Shown: positions 12,301 through 30,683 of the stretch, piece by piece
Layout of the letters: the number at the start of each line of letters is the position of its first letter
Position numbering within the stretch: position 1 is the stretch's first letter
Notes under the pieces: generated by a model
Databases searched by the model: none
Seen by the model: only the letters and a program-made list of their open reading frames with translations
What the model was told of the DNA's origin: nothing
NCBI GenBank assembly: GCA_026225455.1
Contig: JAMFSV010000150.1
Coordinates: 1-34,037 of the forward strand
Direction of reading: 5' to 3'
Length of the DNA stretch: 34,037 nucleotides
From: Burkholderiales bacterium
GTDB lineage: Bacteria > Pseudomonadota > Gammaproteobacteria > Burkholderiales > Burkholderiaceae
Made by a program: the position numbers and the translations under genes

Positions 12301-12939
12301 TTAACTCAGGGCCGCCGACACATCGATAATGCGTTGCGCCGCTTCCGCAATGCGGATGCTTTTTTCCATGGCTAATTTACGCAAGCGGCGATACGCATCG
12401 TCCTCGGTAATTTGCAACTGCTGCATCAGCAATCCTTTGGCGCGCTCGACCAATTTGCGTTCGGTCAGCTTGTTGCGGGTATCGGCCAGTTCGCTACGCA
12501 ATTGCTGCTCGAACTGGAAACGTGCATAGGCCACGTCCAGCACCGGCTTGACGCGCTCCGGTTTCAGGCCGTCGACGATATAGGCGGTAATGCCGGCCGC
12601 CAGCGAGGTCCTGATTCTGTCGGTATCGGTATTGTCGGTAAACAGGACGATGGGGCGGGGCGCATGCTGGGTCGAAACGCACACATGTTCGACCAGATCG
12701 CGCGCGGCCGCTTCGGACTCGATAATCAATAAATCGGGCTGAACGGCGGCAATCAATTCCGGCAGCCGCAAATCGGCGTCGACCACGCTGACCAATTCGT
12801 AACCCGCCGCGGCCAGACCGGCGCGGATAGCGTCGACATCATCTTCATGCGAATTGAACGGGTCGCGCACCAGCAGAATCCTGAGCGAAGCTTGGGCGCC
12901 CGAGGTCTTGGGTACGGTTTCGGAGCTTGGGGGACGCAT
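12301..12939 (-). CDS. nasT: NasT-type ANTAR-domain response regulator / antiterminator
   Basis: 212 residues from ATG 12939 (MRPPSSET). A receiver-like domain (about 20-135) begins with LRILLVRDPFNSHEDDVDAI and includes VVDADLRLPELIAAVQPDLLIIE. It is followed by a coiled linker (FQFEQQLRSELADTRNKL) and a C-terminal ANTAR RNA-binding domain (about 155-208: KLVERAKGLLMQQLQITEDD, YRRLRKLAMEKSIRIAEAAQ). NasT binds two-hairpin leaders of nitrate-assimilation mRNAs and prevents termination when NasS releases it. It is paired with nasS downstream. The ribosome site is weak, and an in-frame start at 13002 is possible. Confidence 0.85.
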   Translation of the reverse strand: MRPPSSETVPKTSGAQASLRILLVRDPFNSHEDDVDAIRAGLAAAGYELVSVVDADLRLPELIAAVQPDLLIIESEAAARDLVEHVCVSTQHAPRPIVLFTDNTDTDRIRTSLAAGITAYIVDGLKPERVKPVLDVAYARFQFEQQLRSELADTRNKLTERKLVERAKGLLMQQLQITEDDAYRRLRKLAMEKSIRIAEAAQRIIDVSAALS

Positions 12940-13309
12940 CTCGGAGCGACGGATTCCTGGAAGAGTAAGGATAAAGTAAGCAAATTTTACGCCCAAGGGC
13001 ATAAAGCGGCGCGCCTCGATTTTGTTAAGTGCTTATTAAGTGCTTACATTGCGAGCCGGGGCCGACCAGGCACATAATAAGCAAACAGCTTCAAGCGACG
13101 GCTGAGCTTGAGTCTGACAGGTTGGGTCCGGTCCCTCGTTGACTGCCGGATTGCGTATTTCGTGCCAGACTTGAATGTCGCGTAATGACTTATATCCCGA
13201 CGCACGGCGACGGCGCATTATCGGCATTGCCGCGTCATGCTGTGCGAACTACGATTGCGGCCCGGATGACGGGCATGGCACCCGAATATGTTTTAGAGAG
13301 ATATCCGAA
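12940..13309. promoter_or_regulatory. Divergent intergenic region of nasT and the FAH-family gene
   Basis: This 370-bp region has no gene. It carries an exact tandem direct repeat TTAAGTGCTTA at 13025-13035 and 13036-13046, 86 bases upstream of the nasT start. Eleven-base phasing puts both copies on the same face of the helix, as expected for tandem binding of a response-regulator-type protein, but it could equally be a chance duplication like others in this window. Confidence 0.4.
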
Positions 13310-17556: not shown

Positions 17557-18075
17557 GGCGGCGGAGTAAACTCTTCGAAGCGCAGCTCATTGGCTGCGCG
17601 GGGCTAGATATCTGGAACCAAGCGGGAGCAAAGGCGCGGTATGGCACAGCGAGCCGGCGACAGGCTTGCATCGGCGGCGGGTGCTTAAGCTTGCGCCTGC
17701 GGCAACGGTGCCTGCGAGTTCGAATCTCTGGTGCGATCTTGCAAACGCCCGAGGCGCTATTTTAACAGAGCCCCAGGCCGGAGCCCGATAAGCGTTTGTG
17801 ATCTGGACCGCCGGCGAATTGCGCGTGAGCGCTTGGTGTGCTGTTGCGCGCATTCATCCATCAAACAATTTACGGAACAGGACACCCGGGCGTGGTATGT
17901 TTCCGACTTTCCGGGCCTGAGCCGTTGGGGGGGGCGACATTCGCCGCACGCTTGCCGCGGCTGCCTGAGTTACTTACCTGAGTTACTTACCTAAGCTGGT
18001 TCCATAAGCCGGTTACACAAGCAGATTACCTAAGCCCGGCCATGCCCGCCCGCACTTTTTCGACTTGAACGCACC
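17557..18075. other. 519-bp gap between ftsY and rsmD with a degenerate 13-bp tandem array
   Basis: No convincing gene is present. The segment should contain the divergent ftsY and rsmD promoters. Its right half holds the tandem array described at 17966-18039. The rest shows no recognisable RNA or coding signal. A T-loop-like GTTCGAAT at about 17718 does not extend into a tRNA. Confidence 0.5.
17966..18039. repeat. Degenerate 13-bp tandem repeat, five units plus a partial sixth
   Basis: Units are TGAGTTACTTACC twice exactly (17966-17991), then TAAGCTGGTTCCA (17992-18004), TAAGCCGGTTACA (18005-18017), CAAGCAGATTACC (18018-18030) and the start of another (TAAGCCCGG). The consensus is roughly TAAGCYGGTTACC. 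It sits just upstream of rsmD. Thirteen bases is not a codon multiple and the array has no coding role. Confidence 0.8.
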
Positions 18076-18765: not shown

Positions 18766-19049
18766 TGCACATGCATTGGCGGCCGGGGTGGCGCTAACGC
18801 GTAAAAACACCTTATTTACCGCCGGCTGAAAATGCTGAAAAATGCCCCCACGCGCGAGTCGTCGCGCAGCAGGCGGTGCGCGCAGGTGGCTTATCGGGGT
18901 ATCCTGCGGCCTGGAGCGTCAACGGCCGCGGGCCGTGACCGCCGGAAGATGAACCCAGGCAGTGGCGCTGCCCGGACCCAAGGGGCCGGGCGGGCCGAAC
19001 AGATCGAGCGAACATGACACAGACTCGAGCAGAGCACGAGGAGAAGGCA

Positions 19050-19547
19050 ATGGTTGTCGCGGTATATCCGGGAACCTTCGATCCGCTGACACGCGGGCAT
19101 GAAGACCTTGTGCGACGCGCCTCCAGCATTTTCGACAAGTTGGTCGTCGGAGTCGCGGACAGTCGCAATAAAAAACCGTTTTTCAACCTCGAAGAGCGGC
19201 TGAAAATTGCGCGCGAGGTGTTGGGCCACTATCCAAACGTGCAGGTTGAGAGTTTTACCGGCCTGTTAAAGGATTTTGTGCGCAATAACAACGCGCGCGT
19301 CATCGTACGCGGCTTGCGTGCCGTATCCGACTTTGAATATGAGTTCCAGATGGCCGGGATGAATCGTTATCTATTGCCCGATGTGGAAACCATGTTCATG
19401 ACGCCCTCCGACCAATATCAGTTTATTTCGGGCACGATCGTGCGCGAAATAGCCCAATTAGGCGGAGATGTCAGCAAATTTGTGTTTCCATCGGTCGAAA
19501 AATGGCTCATGGACAAGGTTGCACTGTCACAATTGCAGCAGCAGTAA
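19050..19547 (+). CDS. coaD: Phosphopantetheine adenylyltransferase
   Basis: 165 residues. It transfers AMP from ATP to 4'-phosphopantetheine, the penultimate step of coenzyme A synthesis, as a cytosolic hexamer. The nucleotidyltransferase signature is [20 protein letters not shown] (TxGH with His17). [20 protein letters not shown] binds phosphopantetheine, and [20 protein letters not shown] is the adenylyl-binding end. The start is ATG 19050 after GAGGAGAAGG; an upstream ATG at 19014 adds 12 residues and overlaps that ribosome site. The 284 bp between rsmD and coaD holds no other gene. Confidence 0.97.
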
Positions 19548-19953: not shown

Positions 19954-21147
19954 CTAAATTTGCGTCAGCTTGGCCAGCGCTTGAAGCAGGCTATTGCACT
20001 CCGCTTCGCTACCGATGCTGATCCGCAAAAATTGAGCGATGCGCGGCGCGTCGAAGTGCCGCACAAAAATCCCTTGCTCACGCAGGCCTCGGCTCAGCGT
20101 CGCCGCGTCATGAAGCGGGTGGCGCGCAAAAACGAAGTTGGCGGCGGATGGCAGTACGTTAAAACCCAATGCTTCCAGTTTGCCGGTTAAGCGGACCCGG
20201 CTGCCGATCACCGCCTGGCGCGTGGTGTCGAACCATTCCTGATCTTCATAGGCGGCGATCGCGGCAACTTGGGCCAGCCGGTCGAGCGGATACGAGTTGA
20301 AGCTGTCTTTAAGCCGGGTCAGGGCGGTGATCAATTCGCTATCGCCCAACGCCAGCCCGACTCGCATGCCCGCCAGCGAGCGCGATTTGGAGAGCGTCTG
20401 CACCACCAGCAAATTCGGATAACGGTGGATCAGTGGGACCGCCGAAACGCCGCCGAAATCGATATAAGCTTCGTCGACCACCACCACGGAATCGCGATTG
20501 ACTTGCAATAGGCGTTCAATCGCGCTTAAGGGCAACAAGCGGCCGGTGGGCGCATTCGGGTTAGCGAAGACGATGCCGCCGTTGGGACCGGCTCCGCAAT
20601 CTTCCAGATAATGCTCAAGGTCGATGGAAAAATCCACATCGAGCGGTATCGTCCGGTAATTTATGTCATACAGCCGACAATAAGTCGGGTAAAAGCTATA
20701 ACCGATATCCGGGAACAGTGTCGGATTATCCTGTTTCAGCAGGCCGGCAAAGATATGCGCCAAGACCTCATCGGAGCCGTTGCCGACAAAAATCTGCTCC
20801 GGGGCCAAGCCATAATATCGCGCCAGCGTGGCACGCAGTTGCCGCGAGGTCGGGTCCGGATAGCGCCGCAGGGATTCGCCCGGCGTGGACTCGCCCGGCG
20901 TGGACCCGCCCGGCGTGGATTCGCCCGGCGTGGACTCGCCCAGCGTGGATTCGCCCGGCGTGCATTCGCCGAGTGCCGCTGCGCCGGACGTGCCGCTCAG
21001 TTCGCGCTGGATCGCCGCCACCACACGCGGCGAAGGTCCATAAGGATTTTCGTTGGTGTTGAGCTTGACCGGGTTGGTCAGCGCGGGCTGTTCGCCCGGC
21101 ACATAGGGCTGCAATCGGTGGACCAGGGCACTCCAGTAACGGCTCAT
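19954..21147 (-). CDS. hisC: Histidinol-phosphate aminotransferase with a GESTP repeat insertion
   Basis: 397 residues from ATG 21147 (GAGG 7 bases upstream). This PLP-dependent enzyme converts imidazole-acetol phosphate and glutamate to histidinol phosphate. Family motifs are [43 protein letters not shown], the PLP lysine in [14 protein letters not shown] (Lys254) and FLRISIGS. Between the first helix (VVAAIQREL, to residue 50) and the conserved LRRYPDPT (93-100) is an insertion of about 40 residues made mostly of GESTP pentapeptides, accounting for the excess over the usual 355 or so. The insertion is in frame and all catalytic residues remain, so the enzyme is probably active. It is not in a his operon here. 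Confidence 0.95.
20873..20977. repeat. 15-bp tandem repeat, seven units, inside hisC
   Basis: Six near-identical plus-strand units (GATTCGCCCGGCGTG and one- or two-base variants) run from 20873 to 20962, with a more diverged seventh to 20977. The period is five codons; on the hisC strand it encodes GESTP repeats at about residues 60-92. Substitutions are mostly C/T, and several units are identical, which indicates recent slippage expansion. Confidence 0.95.
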
Positions 21148-21301: not shown

Positions 21302-21907
21302 TTATCCGGGCTTATGTAGTTGCATCATCGCGCGTTCCAGCTCGCCCTTGACCACCAGCGGCATGACGGTCATGGCTCGCTCCAGCGCCAGATCGATCAA
21401 ATGCTGTTCTTCCTTGCGCGGCGGTTTCAGCACAAAATTCGCCACATCGGGCCGCGCGCCGGCCGCTTTCGCGCTGTCGCCCAGCGCATCGCGCGGATGG
21501 CCGATGCCGATGCGCAAGCGCCAATATTGTTGAGTGCTCAGATGGGCGCTGATGTCTTTCAAGCCGTTGTGGCCGCCGCTGCCGCCGCCGAGTTTAAGTT
21601 TGACGGTGCCGGGAGGCAGGTCCAGTTCGTCATGTGCAACCAGGATCTGGTCGGGCAGAATTTTATAAAACCCGGCGAGCGCCACCACTGAAAGACCGGA
21701 ACGGTTCATATAGGTTTGCGGTTGCAGCAGCCAGACCTCTTCGCCATAGAGCCGCGCGCGCGCCACCATCCCTTGCTGGCGGGACTCGTGACGCAAGGTG
21801 GCATTGCCTTCGCGGGCCAAGGCGTCGACCAGCCAGAAACCCGCATTGTGCCGGGTCGTTACATATTCCGGGCCGGGGTTGCCGAGGCCGACAATCATTT
21901 TGATCAT
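21302..21907 (-). CDS. pth: Peptidyl-tRNA hydrolase
   Basis: 201 residues. It releases peptides from peptidyl-tRNA that drops off ribosomes; essential in bacteria. Motifs are [20 protein letters not shown] (catalytic His20), [20 protein letters not shown] (catalytic Asp) and [13 protein letters not shown], with RIGIGHP following. Length is normal. It lies downstream of rplY, separated by the terminator at 22062-22097, an order conserved in betaproteobacteria. Confidence 0.97.
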
Positions 21908-29810: not shown

Positions 29811-29846
29811 CGTTAGGCGCGTTAGGCACGTTAGGCACGTTAGGCG
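29811..29846. repeat. 9-bp tandem repeat, four units, after mutY
   Basis: CGTTAGGCG, CGTTAGGCA, CGTTAGGCA and CGTTAGGCG lie head to tail 14 bases after the mutY stop, between convergent mutY and the LON-domain gene. It has no hairpin potential and no coding role. Confidence 0.9.
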
Positions 29847-30647: not shown

Positions 30648-30683
30648 GGTTTTAGCCCGGGTTTTAACCCGAGTTTTAACCAT
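30648..30683. repeat. 12-bp imperfect tandem repeat at the rapZ 3' end
   Basis: GGTTTTAGCCCG, GGTTTTAACCCG and AGTTTTAACCAT follow one another; the last unit contains the rapZ stop codon (TTA at 30676-30678 on the plus strand). Confidence 0.6.

Follow-up and report, generated by a model that had tools for sequence, protein, structure and literature searches.

In-frame intragenic variable-number tandem repeats (VNTRs) have been described, for example, in the pe/ppe genes of Mycobacterium tuberculosis, where the repeat unit is a multiple of three bases (PMC12817950). A change in unit number within such a repeat would alter the length of the protein without a frameshift, and the same holds for the array considered here, which lies in a hisC gene of a Burkholderiales bacterium, within a stretch of 34,037 nucleotides analysed as a whole (hereafter the window). 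It has the unit length in common with the mycobacterial repeats but differs in its host, an aminotransferase paralog, and is known from one genome. The closest protein family is HisC, histidinol-phosphate transaminase (TIGR01141), to which the window protein is assigned on sequence similarity. It resembles this family in its score, its invariant columns and its match to a solved HisC structure, but the loop preceding its LRRYPDP motif is far longer than in other members. Finally, a five-residue period is common to the array and the pentapeptide repeat proteins, whose family fold is a regular helix. The hisC insert differs in being modelled as a low-confidence loop instead, and the idea of a pentapeptide-repeat protein was dropped because Pfam (E up to 0.001) gave Aminotran_1_2 as the sole match.

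A 15-bp in-frame array in hisC

The array occupies positions 20872-20970 on the minus strand, inside hisC, as delimited by Tandem Repeats Finder (TRF), a listing of its units and a codon-shuffle control. TRF reports a period of 15, 6.6 copies, 89% matches and no indels, and the score of 156 is the highest among the eight TRF rows in the window. Read along the gene, six full 15-bp units extend from 20970 down to 20881 and are followed by a 9-bp partial unit encoding GES (20880-20872), which leads directly into LRRYPDP, while the frame stays open across the whole array. At a 15-bp shift, identity in the gene's best 84-bp window amounted to 89%, compared to a maximum of 51% among 2000 codon shuffles of the same gene. 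The array is real, and as a candidate coding VNTR or minisatellite it shows a tandem arrangement, an open frame and a unit length divisible by three. Immediately upstream of it on the minus strand, the codon listing shows a non-repetitive stretch of nine residues, SGTSGAAAL (20971-20997), that forms part of the same 42-residue loop.

An earlier note, made from the letters of this DNA, had described seven 15-bp units at 20873-20977. The existence of the array, its placement between the N-terminal helix and the LRRYPDPT motif and its codon-multiple, in-frame period were all borne out, whereas the count has to be corrected to six full units and a 9-bp partial one, and the span to that given by TRF. 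The same note had regarded several units as identical and concluded that slippage was recent. One identical pair does exist (units 3 and 6), but every adjacent pair differs. This gives no indication of fresh slippage and means that the array is old enough for substitutions to have built up. Three of the differences between units are non-synonymous (S to C, P to L and E to G), which fits a loosely constrained loop.

Two further candidates were considered for the array and set aside. A hairpin-driven structure was rejected, as the coding strand folds only slightly better than shuffled sequences (z −1.42 with DNA energies, a value equalled or surpassed by 16 of 200 shuffles), and its complement no better than them (z 0.56). 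A search for plasmid relatives returned 29 records at E up to 10, of which the best had E 0.3 and none covered 80% of the query, and these were taken as chance.

The host gene and its genomic setting

The host gene, a second, pth-coaD-linked histidinol-phosphate aminotransferase paralog, spans 19954-21147 on the minus strand and encodes 397 amino acids from an ATG at 21147, a start that is backed by homologs aligning from residue 1 of MSRYW. Against TIGR01141, the predicted protein reaches 294.5 bits, above the cut-off of 276.55, in agreement with the earlier description of a complete HisC. Upstream of it lies pth (21302-21907, minus strand), with rplY and prs further on that side, and coaD (19014-19547, plus strand) lies on the other side; the same neighbours are found in relatives. 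The names of these four flanking genes are those we presume for them. A contig from the wrong organism was also considered and rejected, since identity to the congener is 78% for MutY, 94% for both prs and coaD, and 86% for pth.

Elsewhere in the window's genome, contig C320 carries consecutive open reading frames (ORFs) of 224, 441 and 356 aa, which we take to be hisG, hisD and hisC. The last of these is intact, HisC-like and also a match in the HisC protein search, and the window hisC is thus, as judged from gene content, a second copy in its genome rather than the only one. Among 60 other genomes, the protein search found a close relative of the window HisC in 25 (best E 3.7e-85 or better, 43–67% identity) and remote matches only in 31 (best E 5e-40 or worse), while four gave no match. 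In the sole congener compared (G001; one genome per species was used), pth ends at 12653 and coaD starts at 13076 of the corresponding locus (L157, contig C14), and no hisC match is present in the 422 bp between them; the best HisC match anywhere in that genome is 32% identical. By sequence comparison, this is a clean presence/absence difference within the genus. The gene is likewise absent between pth and coaD in two other relatives (G007 and G008), and present at this place in five (G020, G017, G012, G014 and G010); in G018 and G009, the examined stretch did not span both neighbours. The array thus sits in a second copy that several relatives lack, and the earlier portrayal of its host as a core metabolic enzyme does not hold in the sense of a sole HisC, given the apparent hisG-hisD-hisC set on C320 and a congener that does without the window copy. 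Gene content suggests that the window HisC would be redundant for histidine synthesis, and it may have another substrate.

Outside the loop, the gene looks constrained. In an alignment of 45 rows (the window protein and 44 of 80 loci), all 94 columns that are invariant in the other 44 rows are kept in the window HisC, as are 131 of the 133 columns with at least 95% agreement. The invariant positions include K254, the Lys of TLSKS, which is presumably the PLP lysine. Mismatch fractions against four orthologs, listed by codon position, were 0.24–0.26, 0.16–0.20 and 0.52–0.56. Mean identity of the window HisC to five relatives was 0.666, which is near the lowest value found among the relatives themselves (0.672–0.734), so no clear acceleration of the window protein can be seen. 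A pseudogene was ruled out by the open frame, the conserved columns, the codon-position pattern and this comparison of rates.

The extended loop and its probable proximity to the active site

The loop before LRRYPDP comprises 42 residues in the window HisC, compared to three (87 rows) or six (18 rows) in 105 aligned homologs, a set that comprises homologs with a tblastn E up to 1e-80, leaves aside the window's own locus, present in seven copies, and probably contains one species twice (L002 and L054). This corresponds to a lengthening by approximately 36 amino acids. No insertion of the array type was seen in any of the homologs compared (0/105), and the outcome that had been named as speaking against a labile repeat, an identical fixed insertion shared by every relative, was accordingly not found. 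Some orthologs hint at where the repeat came from. A native GES stands at the place of the array's last GES in L003, L010 and L075, and the six-residue loops include GEAGES (L003) and GDNGES (L010), from which it follows that the array's last GES has native residues as its counterpart. The native DNA of L003, GGCGAAGCCGGCGAG, is already a loose repeat of GGCGAR. This suggests growth of the array from native GES codons as the simplest origin.

In an AlphaFold2 model of the monomer, the mean pLDDT was 85.9, while residues 55–86 fell below 50; the structure prediction that had been proposed as a check thus placed the insert at very low confidence, as expected for a disordered loop. The best match among solved structures was 3hdo, the HisC of Geobacter metallireducens (E 3.6e-33, TM 0.92 by target). 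Judging by alignment, the loop lies close to the active site. The Tyr of LRRYPDP, Tyr96 (codon at 20860-20862, minus strand), is invariant in the 45-row alignment, and only three residues separate it from the array's final GES. Its E. coli counterpart is, we assume, Tyr55. The Tyr55 discussed in PMC6411801 belongs to another enzyme. In the phmmer alignments, query residue 92 falls on chain position 64 of 4r8d, and residue 91 on position 50 of 1fg3; if the stretches are ungapped in between, Tyr96 would correspond to Tyr67 of the M. tuberculosis enzyme HspAT, within one residue of numbering. In the HspAT structure, Tyr67 is contributed by the neighbouring protomer, from which it projects to line the substrate pocket (PMC4703992). 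Tyr96 therefore probably reaches, by alignment, into the active site of the partner subunit, and the long loop, although predicted to be disordered, would probably lie beside both the dimer interface and the active site.

Probable origin of the array and occurrences of its unit elsewhere

We consider the array likely to be an in-frame minisatellite, specific to this lineage and located in a tolerant loop of a second, dispensable HisC. Native GES codons just 5' of LRRYPDP would have been duplicated along with a TP segment (ACGCCG), after which replication slippage or unequal recombination may have brought the 15-bp unit to its present 6.6 or so copies. With a unit of five codons, each step in copy number would have preserved the frame, and the resulting loop would be tolerated in the window HisC because it is disordered and histidine synthesis does not appear to depend on the second copy. 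The insert is probably a harmless copying accident, whose unit number might differ between strains; on the most likely reading, it is a coding minisatellite that arose by slippage in the loop of a redundant enzyme, which is a known kind of event. What makes the case worth noting is that a conserved enzyme fold apparently takes about 36 extra residues, mostly repeats, at a distance of four residues from a tyrosine that is probably part of the active site, and that a loop of this kind, in a gene copy absent from the congener, offers a natural test of loop growth through slippage.

The position of the insert would also suit a selected function, in which the insert, as a linker rich in negative charge and hydroxyl groups next to the active site, modulates the access of substrate, the packing of the dimer or contact with a partner. 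The enzyme outside the insert is well conserved, and the insert ends four residues before the likely counterpart of the tyrosine that lines the partner protomer's pocket in HspAT (Tyr67*; PMC4703992). We nevertheless regard this as improbable, as the insert is found in none of the 105 homologs, is modelled without structure and contains three unit differences that alter the amino acid. Still less probable is an artefact of assembly, by which a fragmented draft would have created the unit number or the whole array. The assembly is indeed a draft, in 381 contigs and 70.75% complete, but adjacent units differ by substitutions, which is not what a collapsed or expanded misassembly would produce, the frame remains open, and the array, at 99 bp, is shorter than a typical short read.

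A less marginal alternative, though we think it unlikely, is that the unit belongs to a recurrent Burkholderiaceae family of 15-bp tandem repeats (a core of approximately CCACGCCGGGCG plus three variable bases) that occurs at unrelated loci and in either orientation, HisC being one landing place. Such a family might spread by copying between loci or might consist of sequence that is unusually prone to duplication, and either route would be compatible with a neutral insert. At tight settings, the evidence is in its favour. Allowing at most one mismatch, the tandem unit was found in 5 of 144 genomes of the related genus g20 (six matches), compared to none for the reversed control, and two shuffled units and their reversals each gave none in 141 genomes. 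A pattern that allowed any Gly, Ser (TCN), Thr and Pro codon matched 3 of 329 genomes, one of them the window's own, again with none in the control; all four of these matches (two from one array) use TCC-ACG-CCG, although, in the 12 window genes from which codon use was taken, TCC accounts for 13% of the codons for Ser and ACG for 20% of those for Thr. Other results speak against it. With up to two mismatches, 11 matches in 7 of 117 genomes stood against four in the control; with up to three, across 299 genomes of the family, five matches outside the window's genome were outnumbered by 14 control matches; and a 20-mer (one unit plus five bases, at most one mismatch) gave 19 matches in 13 of 141 genomes versus 10 in the control. 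The window's own genome showed no excess, with four non-array places within one mismatch of the unit and three for the control. Among the period-15 TRF rows of sampled stretches, the core was present in 1 of 13 in the window's genome (the hisC array itself), 0 of 15 in the congener and 0 of 14 in nine other genomes, and inspection by eye of the flanks of ten arrays revealed no longer shared flank, apart from that of four homologous MerR loci. The excess is thus present at tight settings and shrinks or reverses at looser ones. Purely local slippage from native codons leaves the occurrence of the unit in unrelated genes, beyond controls at tight settings, unexplained, and this stands as a counterpoint to the minisatellite reading preferred here.

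The hosts of these occurrences are for the most part unrelated. The tandem unit was found at tight settings in the C-terminal tails of MerR regulators (G020 and G342, with G224 and G339 added at looser settings), and it is also held by a DUF2939 protein of G236 (L217), occurs reversed and read as GVDSP in an alpha/beta-hydrolase ORF of G344 (L227), and lies upstream of a PAS-AraC regulator in G452 (L237), where it is probably non-coding. Two of the five matching genomes, G020 and G342, share one homologous MerR gene, which reduces the independent cases to four. Were the family reading to apply, which we rather doubt, a unit with this core would repeatedly form short arrays, coding and probably non-coding, in both orientations and as GESTP or GVDSP linkers. 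Such a unit could mark a hotspot at which duplication depends on sequence, or it could be a minute dispersed repeat; in either case it would supply proteins with disordered linkers, and the HisC loop would be among the longest arrays of the unit found in this analysis. In the literature searched, the unit and peptide strings were in no paper, and no tandem-repeat or HisC title among the matches listed names the repeat. The recurrence of the unit elsewhere is the only part of the findings that could be new; should it be confirmed, Burkholderiaceae would seem to have a source of new protein linkers that is tied to a particular sequence, and complete genomes would allow a direct count.

In the four MerR ORF tails, of G020 (L216), G224 (L218), G339 (L228) and G342 (L229), the GESTP units adjoin the start of the next ORF. 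TRF gives 2.9 units for G020, and counting by eye gives roughly 2.7 to 3 for the other three; the similarity of these values among four species with 78–87% protein identity suggests slow rather than rapid change there. Looser tandem relatives of the unit were seen at L214 (G070), L225 (G329) and L226 (G348); one host ORF is Asp/Glu racemase-like and carries them on its N-terminal side, and for the other two Pfam gave no match.

Short tandem arrays in general are common in these genomes, G012 being sparser. In addition to the window itself, repeat sampling covered 40 further stretches of its genome, totalling 388,049 bp, along with 17 stretches of the congener and 20 from nine other genomes. 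After merging, the window held seven arrays and the further stretches of its genome 38, compared to 53 for the congener (340,000 bp), 16 for G017 (80,000 bp) and 5 for G012 (100,000 bp). A period of 15 was frequent, with 13 TRF rows for the window's genome, 15 for the congener and 14 for the nine other genomes. Other arrays of the window, in or beside intergenic stretches, lie at 17964-18036 (13-bp units), 29811-29845 (9 bp) and 30648-30681 (12 bp). At the corresponding locus in a relative, G017 (L195, 2369-7475), four arrays with 6- or 7-bp units and up to 15.6 copies occur within approximately 5 kb.
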